DNA from: Bdellovibrionales bacterium
GTDB lineage: Bacteria; Bdellovibrionota; Bdellovibrionia; Bdellovibrionales; UBA1609
DNA length: 45,218 nt
Assembly: GCA_013216195.1 (NCBI GenBank)
Contig: JABSOQ010000013.1
Location: 1 to 45,218, forward strand
Direction: 5' to 3'
The notes below the pieces were generated by a model. The model worked only from the letters and a program-made list of their open reading frames with translations, had not been told where the DNA came from and ran no database searches. The stretch's first letter is position 1. Each line of letters opens with the position of its first letter. This document shows positions 22,981 through 41,640 of the stretch, in pieces. A program made the translations under genes and the position numbers.

Positions 22981-25929
22981 TTGGAGAGTACTGACTTGCA
23001 ATTGTCGATTGTGGTGCCGACACACCGTCGTGCCGACAGCCTTGTTCGCTTGCTGAAAAGTTTCAAGCACCAAGATCTGCAGCCAGATCATTTCGAAGTT
23101 ATTGTGGTCTCAAACCTTCCGGATCAAGAGACCGAGCTGAAGCTGTCGCAACTCACTCCAAAACATCAAATGCACTACTTCACAGCGGGTAAAGTTGGTG
23201 TGAACTGGGCTCGAAATCTTGGGTTAAGTAAAGCCAAAGCCGACTTTGTGTTTTTTCTAGATGATGACTGCGAACTCACGCACAATGACCATTTCTCAAG
23301 ACTGATTACGATACACAAGCAGCTTCCACATGTGGCTGCCGTCGGAGGGCTTTATACGCTACCCGCTGAAGCGAACCCCTATGAAAGAGCTTACACCAAA
23401 ATGTCAAATGACTGGGTTAAAGACTCTTTAGATAAAGACCTCATGCAAGTCGAGCGACTTCTAGGCGGTAACGTTTGCTACAAGAAATCACTACTTAAAA
23501 AGGCAGACCTAGAGTTCAACTCGGCCATCGTGTTTGGCGGTGCTGAAACTGAGTTGCATAATCGCATGGTCAAGAACTTCATGGACATGCGACTGTCGAA
23601 CTTGAGTGTGCGTCACCATGTGAAGCTCGATGCTCAGACTTTTTTTGCAAAGGCCATAAGACAGGGCTACGGCAGCCATTTCCAAGACGAGAAAAGCGAT
23701 CCAAATTCTCTGCAACTGTTAAGCAAAAAGCGCCTCTCTTTCTTGAACTTTCAATACCGGCACCTTTTCCGTGTTGGCCAAAAGAAAGCGAATCGCGGAG
23801 AAACTTGGCCTAGCGCTAAAATTAGCCGGCGAAAGATGTGGGCCTACGAGCTTGAAAGCCGAACTGCCAAGTTGGCCTCAGACAGTTATGCAGCTGCAAG
23901 TCTCGCATACTGGACTGCCTATCACCATATTCTCGTAGTGCTTGGAAAAGTCTGGAAGCAGGTGGGTTATGTTTGGAAACTCGCTGTGGTGGGGTTTCAC
24001 AAAGCCTACTGGCCTGCACATGGTAGTGCAATTCAAGCTGGCCATTACATCAGAAGCTTTGCTGTCAAAAACTACAGAAAATACGTAGTTGGAGCATTCT
24101 GGAAACTCGCACATTCGACTCACTTCGTATTTGATGTATTTCGGCACCAGGTTCCTGCGTTTCTTCAACACAAACTACCAGAAAAGATGCGCACAGAAAT
24201 GAAGCGGCTAAATGTTCGCCTACGCGCCGGCTTCGATGATCGCTTAGCTGGCTACAAGTTTAGTGTTTCTGACAAGCCTAGTGTTTATTTTCCAATCTCG
24301 AAAACTTGCACCAAGAACTGCGATTACTGTGGGCTGATTCGAGCGAAAGATCAGTTTGCCGATTTCAACTTATCAAACACGGATGCAGATGAGCTGACTG
24401 CAGATCTGAAGCACATGGGTTACAATCGTCTTACGATTCCTTGTAATTTGGCAGCAATGAGTTCGAGTGAGGCTGATGAGAACCTCGCAGCCCTTGGTCA
24501 GTTCGATAAAGAATTGCTATTGAACCCAGATATCCTGGCCGATTCAAATTGGCAGGCCTTGATAAAAGATTGGCAAGTTAAGGGATTCGAGTTTCTTCTT
24601 TTGCACAGACCCGGCAATAGCTTTCGTGAGATTTATAAGTTTCTGAAAAAAGGCAAAGCTCCTTACCGCGTTCTCAGTGTGCAAGATGTTTCACCAGAAC
24701 TCTCCAGCCTCTACTCGACCCTCTATCCAGAAGACCATCAGCTTGTAGAGTGGCTCTCAACATCAGCTGTCGAGCCGGTCTTACGTGACCCAAAAAACCG
24801 AAAAAGGGCTCAGAACATTGCTAGAACACTCAAGTTCTTTGAGAAAGAAGATATCAAAACTCTGCCTAAGACTTCGAACTTACACTACCCATTTTTGGTG
24901 CCCACTGAGAACGTAACTACAGTGTTACCATCTGGCGAAATGGCATGGTCATCCGATAGCTTTGGCCAAGCCGGCAAAATCAATTATTCGATAGTTATCC
25001 CTGTGCGATTTCAGATTAGTCATGCTTGTAAAGTTTTGCGAAATCTGTCAGCTAACGCCTATGAAAAATCGTCATTTGAAGTGATATTTGTAGATGACGG
25101 AAACGACCAACCCTTGTCGCCTGAGATTGCAAAGTGCTTTCAAGAACATTGCGACTCAGATCTTAAAGCTTGTGTAGTCCGATGGGACCGAAAGGCTGGT
25201 GACCGCTTTGATGATTCTTATAGAGCGGGCCAAGCTCGGAACCTAGGGGTTCGCCACTCCCGAGGCGAGAGATTGATGTTCGTTGACTCTGACATACTCA
25301 TCAGCCCCCAATTGCTTTTTGATCTCGACTCTCAACTTGGTGACAAGATGCTAGTTCAGTTTCCTCGACACATGATGAAAGAGTCTGCCTCGCACCAGTT
25401 TATGCCCTACGAGCAGATCGACCAATCGGAGCACACCTACAAACAGAATCACTACTGGGAGCAATTCAAAGCCACAAAAGACTGGGAAAGTCTCAAAAAC
25501 TACTGGAAGTACACTTGTACTTACGGCCTCGCGGTCACACGAAAGACCTTTGAGTCAGTTGGACCCTTTCGTTCTGAATACATCTACTACGGCTTTGAAG
25601 ATGTCGACTTCGGCTACCGGCTCTATCAAAGCGGGGCAAAATTTTTGCTATTGAACTCTCCGGTATACCACCTGTATCCAGACAAAGAGAATTCGTTTCA
25701 TTTTGACCAGCAAAAGAGGTTCAATGCCCTATCTCGCTCTGCCAGTATCTTCTTGCATAGAAACTTCGATCTAGCCTTTTATATGGACTTAAATCACTTT
25801 TTAGATTCCTCAGTATCTCTTCGACTTCTTAAACCCTATTATTATCTGAGATACAGATGGAAGGCTTTAAGTGGAACCGAAAAAACTGAAAAACCCCGCA
25901 GAAAACAAGTGCAACCAAGCGCAAATTAG
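22981..25929 (+). CDS. GT2 - radical-SAM-like - GT2 fusion protein
   Basis: A 982-residue protein with three modules. Residues 8-245 are a GT2 (GT-A fold) glycosyltransferase: LSIVVPTHRRADSL, Asp94-Asp96 in FLDDDCE and LLGGNVCYKKS. Residues 250-430 are a Trp/His/Tyr-rich stretch that may lie at the membrane. Residues 430-665 carry a radical-SAM cluster motif Cys443-x3-Cys447-x2-Cys450 (KTCTKNCDYCGL). The usual GGE(P) strand is not visible, so SAM binding is uncertain. Residues 667-900 form a second GT2 domain with Asp769-x-Asp771 in MFVDSDILISP and YGFEDVDFGYRL. It starts with TTG; GGGGG lies nearby. The gene overlaps the next one by 59 bases, opening an operon with two more radical SAM genes. 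Probable function: multi-step building of a surface glycan. Both sugars and the radical step are unknown. Confidence 0.8.
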   Translation: MESTDLQLSIVVPTHRRADSLVRLLKSFKHQDLQPDHFEVIVVSNLPDQETELKLSQLTPKHQMHYFTAGKVGVNWARNLGLSKAKADFVFFLDDDCELTHNDHFSRLITIHKQLPHVAAVGGLYTLPAEANPYERAYTKMSNDWVKDSLDKDLMQVERLLGGNVCYKKSLLKKADLEFNSAIVFGGAETELHNRMVKNFMDMRLSNLSVRHHVKLDAQTFFAKAIRQGYGSHFQDEKSDPNSLQLLSKKRLSFLNFQYRHLFRVGQKKANRGETWPSAKISRRKMWAYELESRTAKLASDSYAAASLAYWTAYHHILVVLGKVWKQVGYVWKLAVVGFHKAYWPAHGSAIQAGHYIRSFAVKNYRKYVVGAFWKLAHSTHFVFDVFRHQVPAFLQHKLPEKMRTEMKRLNVRLRAGFDDRLAGYKFSVSDKPSVYFPISKTCTKNCDYCGLIRAKDQFADFNLSNTDADELTADLKHMGYNRLTIPCNLAAMSSSEADENLAALGQFDKELLLNPDILADSNWQALIKDWQVKGFEFLLLHRPGNSFREIYKFLKKGKAPYRVLSVQDVSPELSSLYSTLYPEDHQLVEWLSTSAVEPVLRDPKNRKRAQNIARTLKFFEKEDIKTLPKTSNLHYPFLVPTENVTTVLPSGEMAWSSDSFGQAGKINYSIVIPVRFQISHACKVLRNLSANAYEKSSFEVIFVDDGNDQPLSPEIAKCFQEHCDSDLKACVVRWDRKAGDRFDDSYRAGQARNLGVRHSRGERLMFVDSDILISPQLLFDLDSQLGDKMLVQFPRHMMKESASHQFMPYEQIDQSEHTYKQNHYWEQFKATKDWESLKNYWKYTCTYGLAVTRKTFESVGPFRSEYIYYGFEDVDFGYRLYQSGAKFLLLNSPVYHLYPDKENSFHFDQQKRFNALSRSASIFLHRNFDLAFYMDLNHFLDSSVSLRLLKPYYYLRYRWKALSGTEKTEKPRRKQVQPSAN

Positions 25930-26497
25930 TCGACGGCTAACTTTGGGCAATTTGCTCACTATACTTTTAGCTTTGCTAGTGGGTTCTAGCTGCTCCTCTG
26001 TTATCAAGCGACCCGATTCTGACAGCTCCCCAAAGCCAAGATCACAGTCAATTGAAAAGCCGAAGGCCGCTCAACTAGATAAAAAGCAGCTCGCCAAACA
26101 ATTGGGGCTGTACCGAGACAAAACCGAGATCGGCTTTAAACAGATAACCTTCAATGACTGTTCAATCCCACGTCAATTTCGTAAAAATAGCGAGTGCAGC
26201 ACCCAGTTTTTAGCAATGATCAATTTTCGTATGCGCTGTCGCGATTCTGAGGGCACCGTCGAGCAACAGGTCACAAACTATGAACTCACCGCTCTTACCT
26301 CAGACAATATCAAATGGGATCTCGGTTCACTAAGTGGAACCACCAAGACCGATTCTCGCGGTTTTGGGCAAGTGATCGTGCGAAGCTGGTCCCGAGTCGA
26401 CAACAAGCAATTTCGCCTCACAGCAAATGGTCAAATTATGGGGGTTTCTGCCAAACAGGTACGCCAGTTTGTCTTGCCAAAATATTGGTGCAATTGA
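25871..26497 (+). CDS. putative lipoprotein of the radical SAM operon
   Basis: A 208-residue exported protein starting with GTG (GGAAGG upstream), inside the 3' end of the fusion gene with a 59-base overlap. The N-terminal hydrophobic segment LLTILLALLVGSSC ends at a cysteine, but the lipobox is weak (GSSC instead of LAGC), so a membrane anchor is possible instead. A Ser/Pro/Lys linker follows, then a beta-rich domain of about 120 residues with cysteines in FNDCSIP, SECSTQF, RMRCRD and a C-terminal YWCN. I do not recognise the fold. Its place between a glycosyltransferase fusion and two radical SAM enzymes suggests it works with their product at the cell envelope. Confidence 0.6.
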   Translation: MEPKKLKNPAENKCNQAQISRRLTLGNLLTILLALLVGSSCSSVIKRPDSDSSPKPRSQSIEKPKAAQLDKKQLAKQLGLYRDKTEIGFKQITFNDCSIPRQFRKNSECSTQFLAMINFRMRCRDSEGTVEQQVTNYELTALTSDNIKWDLGSLSGTTKTDSRGFGQVIVRSWSRVDNKQFRLTANGQIMGVSAKQVRQFVLPKYWCN

Positions 26498-26532: not shown

Positions 26533-27726
26533 TTGAAAAACGAAGATTTCATTCAAATTCCCTTTGATCGAATTGACCGGGTCGGTCAGCGCTCTCTTCT
26601 CAACAGAGACCTGTTTTGTGTGTCATGGATCCTTGGCCGTTTTTGCAATTACAGTTGCTCATACTGCTGGCCCTATGCTCACTCAAACAAGCCAGATCAC
26701 AGACCTGTAGAACTCGTTAAAGGTACAATCGATGAAATCAAACGGCAGGCTACCAATAGAGGCTTTCGCTCGTTTCACTTTTCATTCAGCGGGGGTGAGC
26801 CGACTGCCAACCCTAAGTTTTTGGATATCATTTCGCATTACGCCTCTGATCGCGACAAAATGAATTACCTTTCGACTCACATGACTTCAAATTGCAGCCC
26901 TAGCATCAAGTGGTACAAAAGGTACGTTGAGGCTACCAAAGAACTCGACCGAGTTAGCATCACTGCTAGTTACCACTCTGAGTTTGCTAAAAAAGACATC
27001 TTTGCTGAGAAGCTTTTGTTCTTACAAGAGAACGGGGTCAACATCACAATCAACATGGTTATGGTTCCTGAGCGGTTTGATATGCTCTGGGAAACAGCAC
27101 TGTTTTTTCACGAACAAGAGATCAACGTCACACTGAAGCCTCAGAGCAACCCGAACGCCACAAAAGTGGTCGATGGCTACACTGAAGAGCAACTGTTGCG
27201 ACTTCGCACCGGCATGCCGCAAATGGACTTCACTGGTAAGCATTCAAAAGTCAAAAAAGCTGTAGACCCCAACCGACTACCACCAAGTGATTTCAAACCT
27301 CCTGCGCCTAAGCCCAATACACCCAAGAAGTCAGACGACGGTTACGTCAGCCCAGTTCTTCAGGTTGAGCTTATGGATGACTCTGGCAAGAAATGGTACA
27401 TGGACCAAGCCGAGCGATTTAATGCGTTCAACTTCAATCAATTTAAAGGCTGGGAGTGCAGCGCTGGCTACAGAAGCATCATCATTCGTGAGCCAGACGG
27501 AACAATCAAGAGAAGTTACTCTTGTCATGACGAACCATTGGGGCATATCGACACTGGTTTTCAGCTCTTTCCAAAGGTTATGCCTTGCGTAACTCCCTCT
27601 TGTGTCAGCAGTGCTGATAGCAAAATTCCAAAAAGGAAGCCCGGCACGGGTTTACCTCTCTGGCCGCAAAAGGTAACCTCAAACACTCAGCAAACAAGAG
27701 GTGGGGCTCCAGATGTCATGGCTTAA
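26533..27726 (+). CDS. radical SAM enzyme with extra C-terminal cysteines
   Basis: A 397-residue protein starting with TTG; GAGGGGG lies just upstream. The radical SAM cluster motif is Cys38-x3-Cys42-x2-Cys45 (RFCNYSCSYCWP), and the SAM-binding GGEP is at residues 87-90. The barrel runs to about 220. A proline-rich linker follows, then a cysteine-bearing C-terminal region with WECSAGYRS, SYSCHDE and MPCVTPSC, which resembles a SPASM/twitch auxiliary cluster. Such enzymes make carbon-centred radicals on peptides or sugars. The gene is in an operon with the GT2-radical SAM fusion and overlaps the next, twitch-type, radical SAM gene by 14 bases. No short precursor peptide gene was found nearby, so a RiPP pathway is not supported. 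Confidence 0.85.
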   Translation: MKNEDFIQIPFDRIDRVGQRSLLNRDLFCVSWILGRFCNYSCSYCWPYAHSNKPDHRPVELVKGTIDEIKRQATNRGFRSFHFSFSGGEPTANPKFLDIISHYASDRDKMNYLSTHMTSNCSPSIKWYKRYVEATKELDRVSITASYHSEFAKKDIFAEKLLFLQENGVNITINMVMVPERFDMLWETALFFHEQEINVTLKPQSNPNATKVVDGYTEEQLLRLRTGMPQMDFTGKHSKVKKAVDPNRLPPSDFKPPAPKPNTPKKSDDGYVSPVLQVELMDDSGKKWYMDQAERFNAFNFNQFKGWECSAGYRSIIIREPDGTIKRSYSCHDEPLGHIDTGFQLFPKVMPCVTPSCVSSADSKIPKRKPGTGLPLWPQKVTSNTQQTRGGAPDVMA

Positions 27727-29239
27727 TTGGTTAGGTTTCAAAAAAAATGAAGATCAACAACAGGCAGCAGCCACACCACTGCCGGCACCCTGCTCAACTC
27801 AAGAGTCTAAAACCGTTAAAGCGAAAAAGAGCGACTCTCCTTTTTTGACTGATACGTTCTGCATTTTGCCCTGGGCGCACCTCAGCACTCGGCCTAATGG
27901 TCACATGAGAGTTTGCTGCACAGCTAATGCCTCGTCTGCGGCGGCAACTAATGACAAGAAGTACGGTGGCGAAGTTGGCATTCTCAAAAATGACGATGGC
28001 AAGCCTGCAAACTTGAACCACACAACTCTTTCACAAGGGTGGAACAATGCCTACATGAAGAGCATACGAAAACAGATGCTCGCTGGCGAAGTGCCCCCAT
28101 CTTGCTCAAAGTGCTTCAAAGAAGAGGCTGCTGGGCACCGCTCAAAAAGACAATGGGAGACCGAGTACTGGTCGCGTAGGCTCGACGTCAATAAGCTCGT
28201 CGAAGACACTCAAGAAGACGGGTCTGTTCCTCCACAAATTGCCTATGTCGACCTGAGGCTCGGCCACAAATGCAATTTGAAATGCTCAATGTGTTCACCT
28301 CACGACAGCTCTTTGTGGGTCAAAGACTGGAACACAATGTACCCGCAGGTGAAGAACAAGAACCTAAAGCAAATTATGGTTTGGGCCAATGAGGGCAAGG
28401 TCGATGGAGCCAGCTACGACTGGTACCTAAACAACGATTCCTTCTGGACAGAACTCTACGAGCAGATTCCAAACCTTAGGCAGCTTTATTTCGCTGGCGG
28501 CGAAGCCACCATCATAGATAAGCACTACGAGATCTTAGAAAAGTGCATTGAGACGGGCCATGCCCATCACATTGAATTGCGCTACAACTCTAATGGCATA
28601 CATATGCCTGCCAAACTGTTTGAGTTATGGAGCCACTTTCCAAAAGTTAGATTTCACTTCTCTGTCGACAGCATTGGTGAAATGAACGAATACATTAGGC
28701 ATCCTAGCAAATGGTCTGTTATCGAGAGGCAGTTTAAAAGACTTGATGCGACCCCTGACAATGTTGAAGTGACTATTGCGTGTGCTGTACAAGCATTGAA
28801 CATTTACTACTTACCAGAGTTCATTGACTGGAAGCTCTCGCAGAACTTTAAAAAGATCAATCCGGCCCCATTAGGTGCAGGCTTAATCAACGTACATTTC
28901 GTTTATCATCCGGCGTGCTTGAATGTGAAAATCTTCCCGAAAGAATTCAAGCAGCAAGTTCGTGAAAAGTACGAAGCCTATTGTGCTGACTTAGCCAAAC
29001 GCTATTCTGACGACCAAGAGTTTCTTGATAACGCCTACGGCATCAAACGACTGATGGGCCTTGTACAATTTATGGAGTCTGAAGACTGGTCACAAAGAAT
29101 GCCAGAGTTTCAAGAGTACATTCGCCTGCTCGACAAAACGAGAGGCCACTCTTTTGAACAGACTTTCCCAGAGATGGCTCACTTACTTGATTGGCAGGCG
29201 GAGCCAAAACTCGAGGCACAGCCTGAGGCAACCCTCTAG
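27713..29239 (+). CDS. N-terminal twitch-domain radical SAM protein
   Basis: A 508-residue protein of the twitch-containing radical SAM family. Residues 49-71 have FCILPWAHLSTRPNG followed by RVCCTA, the start of a twitch-type auxiliary cluster region that precedes the barrel. The core cluster motif is Cys187-x3-Cys191-x2-Cys194 (HKCNLKCSMCSP) with FAGGEA as the SAM-binding strand. CSKCFKEEAAGHRS lies between. The ATG at 27713 (AGAGGTGG upstream) overlaps the preceding radical SAM gene; a GTG four codons earlier is less likely. The same domain order recurs in the 40234-41640 protein. Such proteins are found among surface-polysaccharide genes in bacteria and in some large phages. The reaction is unknown; with two radical SAM neighbours it is probably a partner step. 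Confidence 0.85.
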   Translation: MSWLNWLGFKKNEDQQQAAATPLPAPCSTQESKTVKAKKSDSPFLTDTFCILPWAHLSTRPNGHMRVCCTANASSAAATNDKKYGGEVGILKNDDGKPANLNHTTLSQGWNNAYMKSIRKQMLAGEVPPSCSKCFKEEAAGHRSKRQWETEYWSRRLDVNKLVEDTQEDGSVPPQIAYVDLRLGHKCNLKCSMCSPHDSSLWVKDWNTMYPQVKNKNLKQIMVWANEGKVDGASYDWYLNNDSFWTELYEQIPNLRQLYFAGGEATIIDKHYEILEKCIETGHAHHIELRYNSNGIHMPAKLFELWSHFPKVRFHFSVDSIGEMNEYIRHPSKWSVIERQFKRLDATPDNVEVTIACAVQALNIYYLPEFIDWKLSQNFKKINPAPLGAGLINVHFVYHPACLNVKIFPKEFKQQVREKYEAYCADLAKRYSDDQEFLDNAYGIKRLMGLVQFMESEDWSQRMPEFQEYIRLLDKTRGHSFEQTFPEMAHLLDWQAEPKLEAQPEATL

Positions 29240-29256
29240 CTAACAAAAGTTAGTTT
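29239..29256. terminator. short hairpin between convergent radical SAM genes
   Basis: GCTAAC-AAAA-GTTAGT with a following TTT on the plus strand; a five- to six-pair stem with a four-base loop at the exact junction of the two convergent genes. It is short for a terminator, so this is a weak call. Confidence 0.35.
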
Positions 29257-30503
29257 ACAAACTGAGAATTAAAAAGGTCGAAGTCTTTTCGACCACAGGT
29301 TTTAGAGCACGTAAAGAGCTTGCCCTCTTGATAGCTAGGCTTCTCCCATGAGTTGGGCAGGCGGCTTTGAAAAAACTCAGACTGCACCACATTCTCAATG
29401 CCTCGTTCAATCGCATTCAGCGAGTCGAGACCACGCTCTAAAGTTTCAAACATCTTCCATAATTCGCCGGTCTTGGGCTTTGAGTACCAAGGGTACATTC
29501 GAATAGCGAGCCAACAGCAAGGCAATGCAAAACCCTCAGCTGTAAGGTAAACACTTTTCTCTGCAGCAACTTTGCAATCAATGGGAGCTTTCTCTATGTA
29601 ATCGACAAGTGGCTTAGCTGAGGCTGCCGGCTTCACAGCGACAGGTTCTTCTTTTTGTTGAGGCTCTTCACTAACAGTCTCTAAAGAACCTCCGCTAGTA
29701 GATGGAGCTGCTATTGAGGACTTTTTCTTCGAAGGTTTGTAGACCTGACCCTCTTTAGTGAACGAAACCGGAGCCGCTTCTTTGATTTGACTTTGTTTTG
29801 CCTTCTCAGTCTTCAAGGCCGAGTTGATATATTTCTCTCCTCTTGGCATCTGGATGGTGTATTCAACCTCCCCATCTCGGTTCATTACAACCTGCTCGTC
29901 TTTGCGAGCCGATTTAGTATTGCTAAAAAATCGGCCTGTCTTTTTGACCTGAAACTTTTGAATGCCCCACATCTCAGCCAAAGTTCTTGCATACTCGACC
30001 TGGTGTTCATTGTGACGAAAGACAATATAATCCCAACGAGCCACCCCTCCAGCGGCAAGAAAGGCTTTTACGTTCTCCTCGACTTTGTGCCAAACAACAC
30101 CTTTGCGGTAAAGGTGATTGGTGTCCTCAAGACCATCGATTGCGAACACTGCTCGATCGACAACCTTTGCCATCTTAGACCAATAGCTAGGGCTACGGAG
30201 CCCGCCATTTGAAAAGATCTCTAGCTGAATTTCGGGGTGAACATTTCTCAACCATTCGAAGATTTCTAAACTCTCAGAGGCAGCTGCAGGGTCACCATAA
30301 TTACCGCACATGTACACTTTGTTGAGCTGTCTCACAAAACTCTCAGAGAGAGCTTTCTGCACATCGGTTAGACTCAGCTCTGTGATTGGCAGTTGGGGGT
30401 TGATGGCCCCTCCGCTCACGGCCCTCAAACACATCGGGCAGGTTGCATTGCACTTGGAGGTGGTCTCCATGTGCAAAATTTTGATCTCGTAACTCTGATA
30501 CAT
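29250..30503 (-). CDS. SPASM-like radical SAM protein with low-complexity insert
   Basis: A 417-residue protein. The cluster motif is Cys18-x3-Cys22-x2-Cys25 (TSKCNATCPMCLR) near the very N-terminus, with CGNYGDPAAASES in the position of the GGEP strand. Residues 225-310 form a charged Ser/Pro/Lys/Glu-rich stretch (KPSKKKSSIAAPSTSGG, EEPQQKEEP) that is almost surely a flexible insert. After it comes a SPASM-like region: PIDCKVAAEKSVYLTAEG, LPCCWLAIR and FTCSKTCGR, which offers enough cysteines for auxiliary iron-sulfur clusters. It faces the twitch radical SAM gene (10 bases apart) and diverges from the pilin-like gene. The opposite strand suggests separate regulation from the 22981-29239 operon. 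Confidence 0.85.
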   Translation of the reverse strand: MYQSYEIKILHMETTSKCNATCPMCLRAVSGGAINPQLPITELSLTDVQKALSESFVRQLNKVYMCGNYGDPAAASESLEIFEWLRNVHPEIQLEIFSNGGLRSPSYWSKMAKVVDRAVFAIDGLEDTNHLYRKGVVWHKVEENVKAFLAAGGVARWDYIVFRHNEHQVEYARTLAEMWGIQKFQVKKTGRFFSNTKSARKDEQVVMNRDGEVEYTIQMPRGEKYINSALKTEKAKQSQIKEAAPVSFTKEGQVYKPSKKKSSIAAPSTSGGSLETVSEEPQQKEEPVAVKPAASAKPLVDYIEKAPIDCKVAAEKSVYLTAEGFALPCCWLAIRMYPWYSKPKTGELWKMFETLERGLDSLNAIERGIENVVQSEFFQSRLPNSWEKPSYQEGKLFTCSKTCGRKDFDLFNSQFVN

Positions 30504-30684: not shown

Positions 30685-32319
30685 ATGTATGTGCGGTTGA
30701 TTTCTCCATTGAAAAATCAGCAAGGTGTGTCACTTGCGGAAGGTTTAGTAAGTGTTGGCGCTGTTGCTGGTCTAGCAGCTCTTATTGCCACCTTGGCAAC
30801 ACAAACAGATACCAGACAATACACATTAAAGAGATCTTGTGAGTCTTTAGCGGCATCGATTACTGAGGCCGTGGCCGAGCAAGGTGTTTACGCAGATATC
30901 TACGGTATCGTACCAGGAAAAGATCCTGTGACGACGGATCCTGATGGGGGTGGAACTTACCCCACTGAGTTAGCCGTGGGCCAAGCCAATGACATGATTG
31001 GTGATGCTCCAGGTGGGCCAATGCCAATTGTTCAAAATACTGATCTCTATCCCGGAGTCACCGAGTTGATCGGAACTGGCCCCACTCCCGTTATTAATAC
31101 TCATAGATTGATCAAAGGTAGCATGGCAGCACTTAACGCCATCTATGCCAGCGCAGATGTTTGTACCAATTGGTCAACCTACCCAAATCTAACTACTCAT
31201 GATGGTACACAGGTTACGGCCCTTGGCATAACCTCTGAACTGTTCAACTTGCCAACTGATCTTGAGATTCGAATTCAGCTTAGAGTTCAACCTGCAAACG
31301 GCGGAGCCGAAGGCTGCCCTGGAGCTGGAACTCCAAGATATATTCGGCCAGGAAGCGCTGCTGACCCTGGGGCTGTTGGGGTTAGAGCCTCTGAAAATGC
31401 CTTCGACCTCTTGTCTTACGATTCAGAAGATGGCGCAAATGATGGGGTTGCCACGCCTCCTGCTAATTCAGTTGTTGGTGACGCTTACGTGTTGCGCGTA
31501 AGGGTCGCATTCGACGCCGATGGTGATGGTGCGCGTGAAGGCTCTTGTATAAAAACTCAAACATTTAGATACCCGGTTGATTCGGAACCACCGAACCCAC
31601 CTGATGCTTTTGAAATTTCAGCTAAGACTCCAGAACTGCCGACTACAGTGGCCGATGCAAATGCTCTCGCAGGACTTGGTCTGTCGTGTACAGCGACTCC
31701 GACCACAGCTAACCAGAGAATCACAATTCGGCTAGTTTACAACGGCTCATTTCGCCCAGGCGATGTGCCACTTTGTAGGGACATTTCGCAGACCCTCAAT
31801 AGAGACCGTGATGCTGACGGCAACGTTGCCACTGATGATTGGGTCTATGGTCAAATACCTGGAGCAGGTGTGAGAACGACTCAATTCTCGGCCGGGGGAA
31901 GCCCAAAGAGAATGTGTGCACGAGCTGCAGGAGGGCCGTACGGGATCGGTATCGACCCAAGTGACTTGCCTGATTACACCGCCTTCCCCGACAGGGTAAA
32001 TGGTGAAGAAGAACCTATGGATTGGGCCCCGGGTGGAGCCGCACTCGATCATTGGGTACCATGCTCTGAAATGAGGCTATGTGGTAAAAGCGTAGATTTC
32101 GTTAACATGACCGATAACGGTTTGCCAGCACCTCCAAACCCAACTGGGGCTAGGCCCTGGAAGTTTCACGAGACCATTCGTGATTACGAACTTCAAGTGA
32201 CATGGCGAGAAATACCAGCCGACTGTATCGTGGGTATCGAAGCTAGAACTGTTGATTTGGCTGGTAACATGTCACCAGTCGTTCGGTTGGCGGATCCAAC
32301 ACCGCCAGGTCGGTATTGA
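30685..32319 (+). CDS. large type IV pilin-like protein, N-terminal portion
   Basis: A 544-residue frame with a prepilin leader. The first 14 residues are basic and end at Gly14; the mature protein would start VSLAEGLVSV with the conserved Glu at position +5, then a hydrophobic helix (GAVAGLAALIATLATQ). Prepilin peptidase would cut after Gly14. The remaining 500 residues are a long, beta-rich, Gly/Asp/Pro-rich extracellular part with a C-terminal Ig-like module (IVGIEARTVDLAGNMSP). Ordinary pilins are about 150 residues, so this is a pilin-tip adhesin or a pseudopilin with a long head. AAGGA sits eight bases before ATG. The frame ends at TGA 32317-32319, but the sequence appears to continue in the +1 frame to 32863, which suggests a frameshift. 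Confidence 0.7.
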   Translation: MYVRLISPLKNQQGVSLAEGLVSVGAVAGLAALIATLATQTDTRQYTLKRSCESLAASITEAVAEQGVYADIYGIVPGKDPVTTDPDGGGTYPTELAVGQANDMIGDAPGGPMPIVQNTDLYPGVTELIGTGPTPVINTHRLIKGSMAALNAIYASADVCTNWSTYPNLTTHDGTQVTALGITSELFNLPTDLEIRIQLRVQPANGGAEGCPGAGTPRYIRPGSAADPGAVGVRASENAFDLLSYDSEDGANDGVATPPANSVVGDAYVLRVRVAFDADGDGAREGSCIKTQTFRYPVDSEPPNPPDAFEISAKTPELPTTVADANALAGLGLSCTATPTTANQRITIRLVYNGSFRPGDVPLCRDISQTLNRDRDADGNVATDDWVYGQIPGAGVRTTQFSAGGSPKRMCARAAGGPYGIGIDPSDLPDYTAFPDRVNGEEEPMDWAPGGAALDHWVPCSEMRLCGKSVDFVNMTDNGLPAPPNPTGARPWKFHETIRDYELQVTWREIPADCIVGIEARTVDLAGNMSPVVRLADPTPPGRY

Positions 32320-32863
32320 CCCAGTCGTGCGCAACACTCTTATCATGACTGAGGCAGGCCTGAATTCGCGAGTTTTTCAAAGACCTGTTTGTTCAGTAGC
32401 TGGTCAAACGGGCGCCGGCTGGACTGGTGGTGGAACGAACTTTCCAACCAGCCAGTCGCGTGATGGACAGGTTCTTAGCCCTGGTACACCCAACTATGGT
32501 GAGTTTGTGCCTGGGATGGGTTGGTGGTGCCGACCACCTGAATACAACGGTAGTGGAAGGCCTGCTAACTTTATGGAACCCAACATTAACTACGCAGCTC
32601 TCGCCGCCGAGACTGGCTTAAACGACCCGAACCCAAACAACAATGTGGTCTCTGAGCACAGAATCATGAACTGGCGAACCAACTCCTCGTTTGACAATCT
32701 CGGTAACCCTGAGGCAGCAACTCCATCTTCAGACACGCCGGGTAACGGTGGTAACGGTGATGGCAACTGGGTGAATGACTTCCCGAATGGTTACTACACA
32801 TGTCGGCCAAGTGGTTGCTGTATCAATGCCCCTGGCTCGTCAACCTGTACTCCTTTCAACTAG
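32318..32863 (+). CDS. frame-shifted C-terminal part of the pilin-like protein
   Basis: The frame opens inside the end of the pilin-like gene (nominal TTG start at 32252; the codon after the pilin stop is 32318) and runs to 32863. It encodes a Gly/Asn/Pro-rich segment with DPVVRNTLIMTEAGL, GGGTNFPTSQSRD, WWCRPPEYNGSG and a cysteine-rich end PSGCCINAPG. It has no signal peptide or credible ribosome-binding site (an internal ATG at 32345 is possible). Because it follows directly and has the same beta-rich style, I take it as the remainder of one 726-residue protein. A +1 shift at the TAT-TGA-C site would join the two frames. A base error is the alternative. Confidence 0.5.
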   Translation, partial: DPVVRNTLIMTEAGLNSRVFQRPVCSVAGQTGAGWTGGGTNFPTSQSRDGQVLSPGTPNYGEFVPGMGWWCRPPEYNGSGRPANFMEPNINYAALAAETGLNDPNPNNNVVSEHRIMNWRTNSSFDNLGNPEAATPSSDTPGNGGNGDGNWVNDFPNGYYTCRPSGCCINAPGSSTCTPFN

Positions 32864-33005: not shown

Positions 33006-33893
33006 TTGAGCTTAATGATTGGCGTCTGCACCTCTGGGCGTATTGAATTGCTATTTGAGTGCCTTTACAGTTTGCAAAAGCAAGATTTTGACATGAGTCA
33101 GGTGCAGATTGTTGTGCCACTGATGGCTAAACACCAGCCAACCTTGGCAAAACGCTTATCACACTTTGATGGTCTAAATATAGAAACCCCTTTTACGGAT
33201 GAGTACAACGCCTCGACGTTGAGAAACCTGTTTCTGAAAACTTGCAAACAACCACTGCTCTATATGATCGATGAAGATTGCTCTTTGCCAAAGAGCACTC
33301 ACCTTCGTGACCTCGTGGCCTATCATCAGGCCTTTCCGAAGGTAGAGGTGATCGGCGGTAGATACCAAAACGGCTCCAATACGAGCTACTTCGGCAAAGC
33401 CTACAATTTGGTCTGTGATTTGTGGCAAGACCGAAATGATTTCTACTCCCAATCGGATCGCCTAAAACACGTTTTGGGCGGCAATATGTCTTTGAAGATA
33501 AGTCGAGAAATCAAGATGTTTCGCTTTGGTGACCAGTCTGACTTTGGAGGCGAGGAGTTGTCGTATCTCAAACAGCTGCAAAAGGCTGGAATTCGAGTGA
33601 TGCTCGTGAATGGCTTAAACATCACCCACAATGCACAACATGACATCGCTAGTTTTTTGTCTCGAGCCTGGCTTCATGGTGGCAATAAGTACTATCTTGA
33701 AAAAGAAAACTTTGGCACCGTCTTCAAAGATCGAACAATGTTGTTCTCAAAACAGCGGCCAGCAGATGAAAAGATTCTCGCAGGTGCTTATCTTGGCATT
33801 GTGCAACTCTCCTATCTTAAAGAGTTCGTCAAAAACGATCTGTCTTCTCGCAGTTTAGGTCATTGGAAACGCCAACTACTAAAAAGAACATGA
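33006..33893 (+). CDS. GT2-family glycosyltransferase
   Basis: A 295-residue GT-A-fold enzyme that transfers a sugar from a nucleotide donor. Asp-Glu-Asp in MIDEDCSLP is the metal site, and LGGNMSLKISR, GGEELSYLKQL and HNAQHDIAS follow as in GT2. The layout (DEDC, then IGGRYQ, KAYN, VLGGN) is parallel to the first GT2 module of the 982-residue fusion (DDDC, VGGLY, RAYT, LLGGN), so the two are paralogues. A TTG at 33006 has GAGG at eight bases; the ATG three codons later is too far. The stop overlaps the next gene's start in ATGA. Acceptor unknown; role in the same surface glycan pathway is an inference. Confidence 0.8.
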   Translation: MSLMIGVCTSGRIELLFECLYSLQKQDFDMSQVQIVVPLMAKHQPTLAKRLSHFDGLNIETPFTDEYNASTLRNLFLKTCKQPLLYMIDEDCSLPKSTHLRDLVAYHQAFPKVEVIGGRYQNGSNTSYFGKAYNLVCDLWQDRNDFYSQSDRLKHVLGGNMSLKISREIKMFRFGDQSDFGGEELSYLKQLQKAGIRVMLVNGLNITHNAQHDIASFLSRAWLHGGNKYYLEKENFGTVFKDRTMLFSKQRPADEKILAGAYLGIVQLSYLKEFVKNDLSSRSLGHWKRQLLKRT

Positions 33894-39884: not shown

Positions 39885-40233
39885 AATTTCCCCACGCTTA
39901 GATATCTACCCGCAAACTGCGAGCGACTTTGTAGTATGAGCAAACGGGGATACCAAAATTTTCATGTACAACCAACAATATTAGCGAATCTGGTGCTTTG
40001 CCCGAATGCAGCTGATTCTGACCAGCTGCGCCAGATGCAATTCTTTCACTGCCTTCTCCCAATGTGCTTAGAAAACAAGCCATTTCGGGGGCTTGATTGC
40101 CCCGATAAGCCTCTCCAAAACTGCCAAATGGTCTCGGGTTCATGAGCAGCACAACCCTCTACTGATCTGCTCAACATATATTGATAAAAGCATTTATCGC
40201 CAGTACACTCGCGCCCGCGAGCAGGGGTACCTA
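39885..40233. other. 349-base gap with an inverted repeat before the twitch radical SAM gene
   Basis: No gene is supported here: short frames on both strands overlap one another and none has a family pattern or ribosome-binding site. Both the divergent symporter pair and the radical SAM gene must have promoters in it. GATAAA-AGCA-TTTATC at 40183-40198 is a perfect six-pair inverted repeat, 36 bases ahead of the chosen start, and may be an operator. Confidence 0.4.
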
Positions 40234-41640
40234 ATGAGCGAATCAAAAGACAGCAGCTTAGACAAAGTGAGTGAAACCAAACAGCGACTAGACAAGGTGT
40301 CTGACGCATTTTGTTTGGCCAAGTGGTACCAAGCCACACTTCACCTTCACAATGGCAACACTCAAAGTTGCCATCATGTGGGTTCTCACAGGGTACACAA
40401 AACTGACTTAAATGCTCGAGGCCCCATGGCCCTTCACAACACTCCTGAAAAAAAACTTGAGCGCACCCAGATGCGGAAAGGCCAAAAGCCAGCCGGATGT
40501 GAATATTGCTGGAAGCTCGAAAGACAAGGCGAGATCAGTGACCGCACTTATAAGAGTGCTGAAGACTGGTCGATGCCCTTTTTAGATGAGACTGCAAAGT
40601 TTGATGGTTCTGAAGATGTATTGCCAAAATACCTAGAGCTGGCTTTCGATAACGTTTGTAACTTTAAGTGCATGTACTGTAGCCCACTCTACTCTTCTAG
40701 CTGGGAGGCCGAGATTAAAAAACACGGCCCCTTCCCGACCACTGGCTTCTACAACAATATGAGCCTATTCAAGTTTCAGGGCAGAAGCGTTCTACCCGAT
40801 CAAGACAAACGAAAGTATATAGACGCTTTCTGGGAATGGTGGCCTCAGCTCAAGAATGAACTTATACACTTGCGAGTGACTGGCGGTGAACCGCTGTTGA
40901 CTGACGAAACTTGGAGACTTCTAGATGAGCTGAAGTCAGGCGAGTTCAAAAATTTGAACTTTGCCATCAATTCGAATTTGGGATTGTCGACAAAGATTAT
41001 GAAGAAGTTCGTAGACAATCTGAACCAAATTCGACCCAACGTAAAATCGGTGCTTGTGTACGCCTCAATCGATACGGTTGGAAGACAAGCTGAGTACATA
41101 AGAAACGGGCTTGTAGAAGATCAGTTTTTTACCAATTTAGAAACTCTTCTTCGCGAGACTGATGGCAAAGTGGTGGCTTCACTTATGATCACAGTGAATG
41201 CACTTAGCATTTTCGGTCTCAAGGGTCTTATGCAAAAGATCGAAGCTTTACGTCAGAAATACCCTGAGGCAGTCATTGCTTTTGACACACCTTATTTAAG
41301 AAACCCAGAGCACCTCTGTTTGCACATCTTGCCTCCTGAAATGTCTGTCTACATTCAAGAGGCTGTGGCCTTCTTAAAACAAAGTGATTACTTCAGCGAC
41401 AGAGAAGTAAATCGGCTCGAGAGGCTTTTGTCGTTAATGAAAGACAACCCATGGGGCAAGAGCAAACTTAAAAGGCTAAGAGAAGATTTTTATAAGTTCA
41501 TGAAAGAGCATGACTTAAGAAGAAAAACTGACTTCTTGGGAACTTTTCCGGAGCTTGATGAGTTTTGGCAAGATATCGAGACTCACCTGGGTCGCTGGAC
41601 ATTTCGAAAACTCACTGAATTTATCAGACCGCAGCTTTAG
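40234..41640 (+). CDS. N-terminal twitch-domain radical SAM protein
   Basis: A 468-residue protein, second of its type in the window. I start at the ATG at 40234, where AGGGG lies upstream; the frame extends 47 codons further without family-like sequence. The N-terminal region FCLAKWYQATLHLHNGNTQS-C (about residues 26-47) and GCEYCWKLE match the twitch start of the 27713 protein. The radical SAM motif is Cys142-x3-Cys146-x2-Cys149 (VCNFKCMYCSP), with VTGGEPLL as the SAM-binding strand. It has no neighbours of the glycan operon and sits alone between a symporter and a GH13 enzyme. Presumably it is an independent enzyme of the same family, acting on another substrate. Confidence 0.85.
   Translation: MSESKDSSLDKVSETKQRLDKVSDAFCLAKWYQATLHLHNGNTQSCHHVGSHRVHKTDLNARGPMALHNTPEKKLERTQMRKGQKPAGCEYCWKLERQGEISDRTYKSAEDWSMPFLDETAKFDGSEDVLPKYLELAFDNVCNFKCMYCSPLYSSSWEAEIKKHGPFPTTGFYNNMSLFKFQGRSVLPDQDKRKYIDAFWEWWPQLKNELIHLRVTGGEPLLTDETWRLLDELKSGEFKNLNFAINSNLGLSTKIMKKFVDNLNQIRPNVKSVLVYASIDTVGRQAEYIRNGLVEDQFFTNLETLLRETDGKVVASLMITVNALSIFGLKGLMQKIEALRQKYPEAVIAFDTPYLRNPEHLCLHILPPEMSVYIQEAVAFLKQSDYFSDREVNRLERLLSLMKDNPWGKSKLKRLREDFYKFMKEHDLRRKTDFLGTFPELDEFWQDIETHLGRWTFRKLTEFIRPQL

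Follow-up and report, generated by a model that had tools for sequence, protein, structure and literature searches.

The window analysed here, a stretch of 45,218 nucleotides on a contig that is part of the 4.1-Mb draft genome of a Bdellovibrionales bacterium, encodes a protein in which two glycosyltransferase modules of the GT2 type, GT2a and GT2c, flank a degenerate domain resembling radical SAM enzymes (Table 1). This three-module protein is the product of a single fusion of two genes that are usually neighbours. Because the middle domain has been kept across the phylum even after its iron-binding cysteines were lost, its role is probably to support the two glycosyltransferases and not to perform radical chemistry, and canonical radical SAM catalysis by this module is unlikely. 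The reading we prefer, in which two inverting GT2 enzymes cooperate and a degenerate barrel derived from radical SAM enzymes serves as a scaffold or metal site of GT2c, has in our estimate a probability of about 0.6.

Table 1. Coding features of the fusion gene and of its surroundings, given as positions in the window.
Feature	Position	Strand	Remarks
Fusion ORF, 982 aa, single open frame	22981..25929	+	TTG start; GT2a, aromatic linker, degenerate radical-SAM-like domain, GT2c
N-terminal GT2 module (GT2a), residues 1-290	22981..23850	+	DDD 94-96, GGAE 186-189; EpsD-like
Basic, aromatic linker, residues 291-426	23851..24258	+	Similar to repeat tails seen in stand-alone GT2a
Middle domain, residues 427-666	24259..24978	+	Six beta-alpha units, radical-SAM-like, degenerate; from AF2 models and Foldseek
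C443-x3-C447-x2-C450 (CTKNCDYC)	24307..24330	+	Within the middle domain
P487-C488-N489	24439..24447	+	After strand 2, at the GGEP position of radical SAM enzymes; possible fourth ligand
C-terminal GT2 module (GT2c), residues 667-982	24979..25926	+	VDDG 704, DSD 769-771, GFEDVD 871; C-terminus KPYYYLRY
Small putative lipoprotein	25871..26497	+	Start overlaps with the fusion gene's end
Genuine radical SAM protein, part of the conserved cassette	26533..27726	+	CNYSCSYC, SGGEP
Twitch-domain radical SAM protein	27701..29239	+	NF033640, 445 bits (cut-off 170)
Third cassette member, radical SAM protein	29250..30503	-	CNATCPMC
Stand-alone GT2 paralogue of GT2a	33006..33893	+	26% identity

Both terminal modules scored above the curated cut-offs of GT2 families in Pfam. 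PF00535 matched the whole protein with 114.8 bits (cut-off 23.3) and had its best stretch at residues 9 to 172 of GT2a, the module of the acidic triad D94 to D96. In GT2c, PF10111 covered residues 670 to 923 with 60.2 bits (cut-off 27.3) and PF02709 residues 840 to 890 with 24.9 bits (cut-off 23). The acidic motifs of GT2c are the DxD pair D769/D771 and the ED pair E873-D874, and its nearest solved relative in the PDB is the chondroitin polymerase K4CP, by structure as well as by sequence (E 2.5e-7). A recount of the residues placed DDDC at 94, FVDSD at 767, GFEDVD at 871, cysteines at 443, 447 and 450, and C488 within PCN. Thus the residue numbers given in the initial annotation for Asp94-Asp96, Asp769/Asp771 and the three cysteines are exact. 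Its order of three modules with a radical-SAM-like middle holds.

Homologues with the same three-part layout, which the initial annotation had recommended to search for, do exist. The scan of contigs of close relatives with the single protein as a query yielded no matches; with an alignment as a query it returned two congeners and nothing else, both MAGs of Bdellovibrionales/Bdellovibrionia. One of these (G100) has the same module order in 1220 aa with one additional N-terminal module, the other (G099) has the middle domain and GT2c, its N-terminus being lost near a contig end. The fused layout without cysteines also occurs in two further genera (L048 and L067). Across the order a GT2c profile matched 45 of 141 genomes; when middle domain and GT2c were combined in one profile, 51 of the 369 genomes from the phylum matched at E 1e-20, in some cases via the GT2 part only. 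The commonest form of the family is an ORF of about 500 aa with a middle-like domain followed by GT2c, and a separate GT2a gene lies at most 1.5 kb from the family gene in 25 of 48 loci. One stand-alone homologue is encoded at L066:9640-11142, and another on the complete 2.66-Mb chromosome G045. On the tree the fused proteins (window, G100, L048 and L067) and the truncated protein of G099 form one clade with a support of 99/97, and the fusion state changes once. The single clade, the single change and the usual adjacency of GT2a together identify the three-module protein as a fusion of customary neighbours. Outside the cellular genomes, the phages searched gave no match, the plasmids searched ordinary GT2 domains and nothing more, and the viral contigs searched matches that were nearly all in the GT2 part, with 22-34% identity. 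In the literature searched we did not find the three-module layout described.

Several variants of the architecture were seen in passing. The additional module at the N-terminus of the fusion in G100 (L008:11395-12030(+)) had no significant Pfam or PHROG match and is possibly another GT-A-like domain (VVDGDN). The fused protein at L067:7793-11221(+), the middle domain of which is devoid of the cysteine motif, has a further C-terminal GT2 that looks DPM1-like by eye, and a protein of 1351 aa (L076:5344-9396(-)) contains a diverged second copy of the middle-like domain and GT2 in tandem. GT2c relatives at L093:9438-10763(-) and L094:8668-10011(+) start with a different, short cysteine-rich stretch.

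Stand-alone GT2a proteins have repeat tails to which the linker of the fusion protein is similar; this likeness would fit a fusion of two neighbouring genes. The linkers of the congeners carry a YW..Y repeat. Basic and aromatic linkers or C-terminal tails of this kind were noted in GT2 proteins at 23851-24258, L009:6971-7541(-), L060:6479-8569(-), L066:11235-13157(+) and L048:7897-11073(+). They contain 14-26% W/Y/F and hardly any D/E; tandem repeats are clear in several of them with best lags of 20-36 aa, the repeat signal of the fusion's own linker being barely above that of shuffled sequence. Several proteins end in KPYYxLRY.

The cysteines of the middle domain are strictly kept in some lineages and missing in others. 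CxxxCxxC and P-C-N are both invariant in the three proteins of the same genus (window, G100 and G099), and CxxxCxxC by itself is invariant in 14 proteins of the middle-domain family spread over several clades, which argues that the motif is more than a chance occurrence. The residue ahead of the third cysteine is Y or F in most of the Cys-bearing members. At the position of GGEP after strand 2 the family has PCN, PPN, PAN and the like; the initial annotation had correctly reported that GGEP was not visible, and P487-C488-N489 takes its place. Of the 42 members whose state was mapped on the tree, 12 have CxxxCxxC and 30 lack it (states counted by hand). The bearers are spread over several distinct clades, with at least seven changes of state, a count that does not set the direction of change. 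It is simpler to assume a Cys-bearing ancestor and repeated losses, given how unlikely it is that one motif would arise again and again at one place. Profiles of Cys-bearing and Cys-less domains matched each other at 99.9% (E ~1e-34), also with the cysteine columns masked. Thus the middle domain exists without its cysteines, and this persistence makes canonical radical SAM catalysis unlikely as its general role. Of 3 independent pairs, on average 1.7 had the fourth cysteine and the three-cysteine motif agreeing in direction and 0.0 had them opposed, a number of pairs too small for testing. Relatives of the middle domain that lack GT2 and have both CxxxCxxC and PCN were observed as stand-alone proteins at L053:12334-14676(+), where the protein has a long aromatic repeat tail, and at L081:2267-3586(+).

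The origin of the middle domain was approached by structure models and by profiles. An AF2 model of residues 401-982 (582 residues) had a pLDDT of 85 and a pTM of 0.87 and displayed six beta-alpha units ahead of GT2; a model of the middle domain alone was weaker with a pLDDT of 74. Foldseek against the PDB returned TIM barrels of MTHFR and N-acetylneuraminate lyase with TM ~0.4 and no radical SAM protein among the best 50 matches listed. Among the viral models, radical SAM or Fe-S oxidoreductases made up most of the best 23 matches, in a library that may hold few other TIM barrels. In Pfam and NCBIfam nothing exceeded the curated cut-offs over the middle region. PF04055 reached 13.3 bits (E 0.09; cut-off 29.5 bits), zf-CHCC scored as high as Radical_SAM, and PF04055 was listed for just 2 of the 14 Cys-bearing members with a best E of 0.055. 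Of the sub-threshold NCBIfam families of these members 10 of 15 are radical SAM families, and these weak scores come from the cysteine motif by itself. With hhalign the match to known radical SAM families was at most 26% and was gone once the three cysteines were masked, and searching the PDB by sequence with the middle-domain profile gave chance matches only. The middle domain has in common with the radical SAM superfamily (PF04055) the CxxxCxxC motif, placed in the loop that follows strand 1, an aromatic residue ahead of the third cysteine and, in its models, six beta-alpha units. It differs in that GGEP is absent, the score stays below the gathering threshold and the cysteines are missing in most relatives.

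These data also bear on the view that the middle domain never was a radical SAM enzyme and is instead an unrelated TIM-barrel-like domain that has a four-cysteine zinc or Fe-S site in some lineages. The PDB matches with MTHFR and N-acetylneuraminate lyase, the dependence of the hhalign likeness on the cysteine motif and the equal score of zf-CHCC speak for it. Against it speak the location of the motif where radical SAM enzymes have theirs, in the loop between strand 1 and the next helix, the aromatic residue preceding its third cysteine, the subsequent strand 2 and PCN at the spacing of GGEP, and the viral structure library pointed mostly to radical SAM proteins. We regard such an independent origin as unlikely. 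The initial annotation had made its radical SAM claim dependent on the fold and on constant cysteines. Of the two outcomes that together would have refuted it, variation of the cysteines across the family was observed; the modelled fold has six beta-alpha units and TIM-barrel matches, which are MTHFR and N-acetylneuraminate lyase in the PDB and mostly radical SAM proteins among the viral models.

Intact radical SAM enzymes travel with the glycosyltransferase family. The same three radical SAM genes as downstream of the fusion gene are located near a family gene in L060, L066, L077, L091 and L092, which represent genera of two taxonomic families. Orthologues of the protein encoded at 26533 were present in 22 of 369 genomes, and 19 of the 22 also had a family gene (compared by hand and uncorrected for kinship of the genomes). 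The neighbouring twitch-domain protein belongs to NF033640, whereas the fusion protein is not a member. A second twitch-like radical SAM protein is encoded at 40093-41640, and its relatives are found near a family gene in L048, L088 and L089. As to other neighbours, in each of the three congeners the fusion gene is followed by a gene for a small putative lipoprotein (25871-26497; L008:15054-15683; L009:3457-4053(-)), with a transposase-like ORF inserted between the two in G099. Two overlapping ORFs at 30685-32319 and 32252-32863 had no Pfam match, and the first starts like a prepilin-type surface protein.

The company of intact radical SAM genes indicates that the host of the pathway makes such enzymes, and together with the invariant CxxxCx(aromatic)C of Cys-bearing members from several clades it could be taken to mean that the middle domain itself is an active, non-canonical radical SAM enzyme, able to bind SAM in the absence of GGEP through a [4Fe-4S] cluster on C443/C447/C450 and to alter a sugar or linkage of the GT2 product. 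We consider this doubtful, as P-C-N replaces GGEP, the domain stays while its cysteine state changes at least seven times, the scores are far below curated cut-offs and a second active enzyme is unnecessary given the intact ones of the same locus. The proposal of the initial annotation that the protein alters a sugar or linkage by radical chemistry is not borne out: GGEP is absent, the cysteines are mostly missing while the domain persists and Radical_SAM scores below every curated cut-off. We find its fallback, in which the domain is a degenerate iron-sulfur one, more convincing. That the protein is an ordinary two-GT2 polymerase with a neutral remnant or meaningless spacer in its middle is very improbable, because the middle domain, although it diverges faster among the congeners than GT2c (31-34% identity, 34% to G100, versus 56%), precedes GT2c in nearly all members examined from the whole phylum and has a confident fold in the AF2 model that includes GT2c.

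We return to two cooperating transferases around a degenerate barrel. The protein would have been formed by joining the products of neighbouring genes, a GT2a with an aromatic and basic tail and a two-domain protein of degenerate barrel and GT2c. Both GT2 modules, which have kept their nucleotide-sugar and metal motifs, most likely take turns in adding sugars to a single surface glycan or glycolipid. The architecture, the motifs, the fusion, the synteny and the distribution of the cysteines are observed; we infer the substrate, the order or alternation of the sugars, the metal, the direction of the cysteine changes and an association with the membrane through the aromatic linker. The middle barrel would serve as a non-catalytic scaffold of GT2c, in which cysteines 443, 447, 450 and 488 in the lineage of the window probably form a structural metal site, presumably for [4Fe-4S] or Zn. 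Radical chemistry on the product, if there is any, would be carried out by the three intact radical SAM proteins next door. As a counterpoint, the four invariant cysteines in the genus of the window could stand for a cluster that is still live and has a separate function. A version in which Cys488 completes a four-cysteine [4Fe-4S] ligation, and the former catalyst acts as a redox- or oxygen-responsive switch controlling the dual glycosyltransferase, appears rather improbable to us.

The family occurs throughout Bdellovibrionota, and its middle domain is not modelled above the cut-offs by Pfam or NCBIfam. It offers a radical-SAM-like domain that can be traced from four cysteines to none beside intact radical SAM enzymes, and thus a natural experiment on the reuse of such a barrel after its catalysis is lost, as well as a lead to a surface glycan of Bdellovibrionota.

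Two known systems invite comparison. The mycofactocin glycosyltransferase MftF (TIGR03965) is a GT2 enzyme encoded with the radical SAM maturase MftC, and the fusion gene likewise has radical SAM neighbours. The fusion protein scored 102 bits with TIGR03965, the best stretch being in GT2c, which is far below the cut-off of 280 bits, and no conserved small ORF or precursor-peptide gene was found near the cassette; membership in MftF and a RiPP pathway of the MftF/MftC type were therefore rejected. K4CP (KfoC) of E. coli K4 and also the heparosan synthase PmHS combine, like the fusion protein, two GT2 (GT-A) modules in one polypeptide, and GT2c shares the Glyco_transf_7C element with two-GT2 polysaccharide synthases such as K4CP. 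Unlike these enzymes, the fusion protein has a radical-SAM-like domain of 240 aa and an aromatic, basic linker between its two modules, and in most genera of its family the two GT2 are separate genes. By analogy, the architecture of the fusion protein would fit an alternation of two sugars on one chain as in K4CP.
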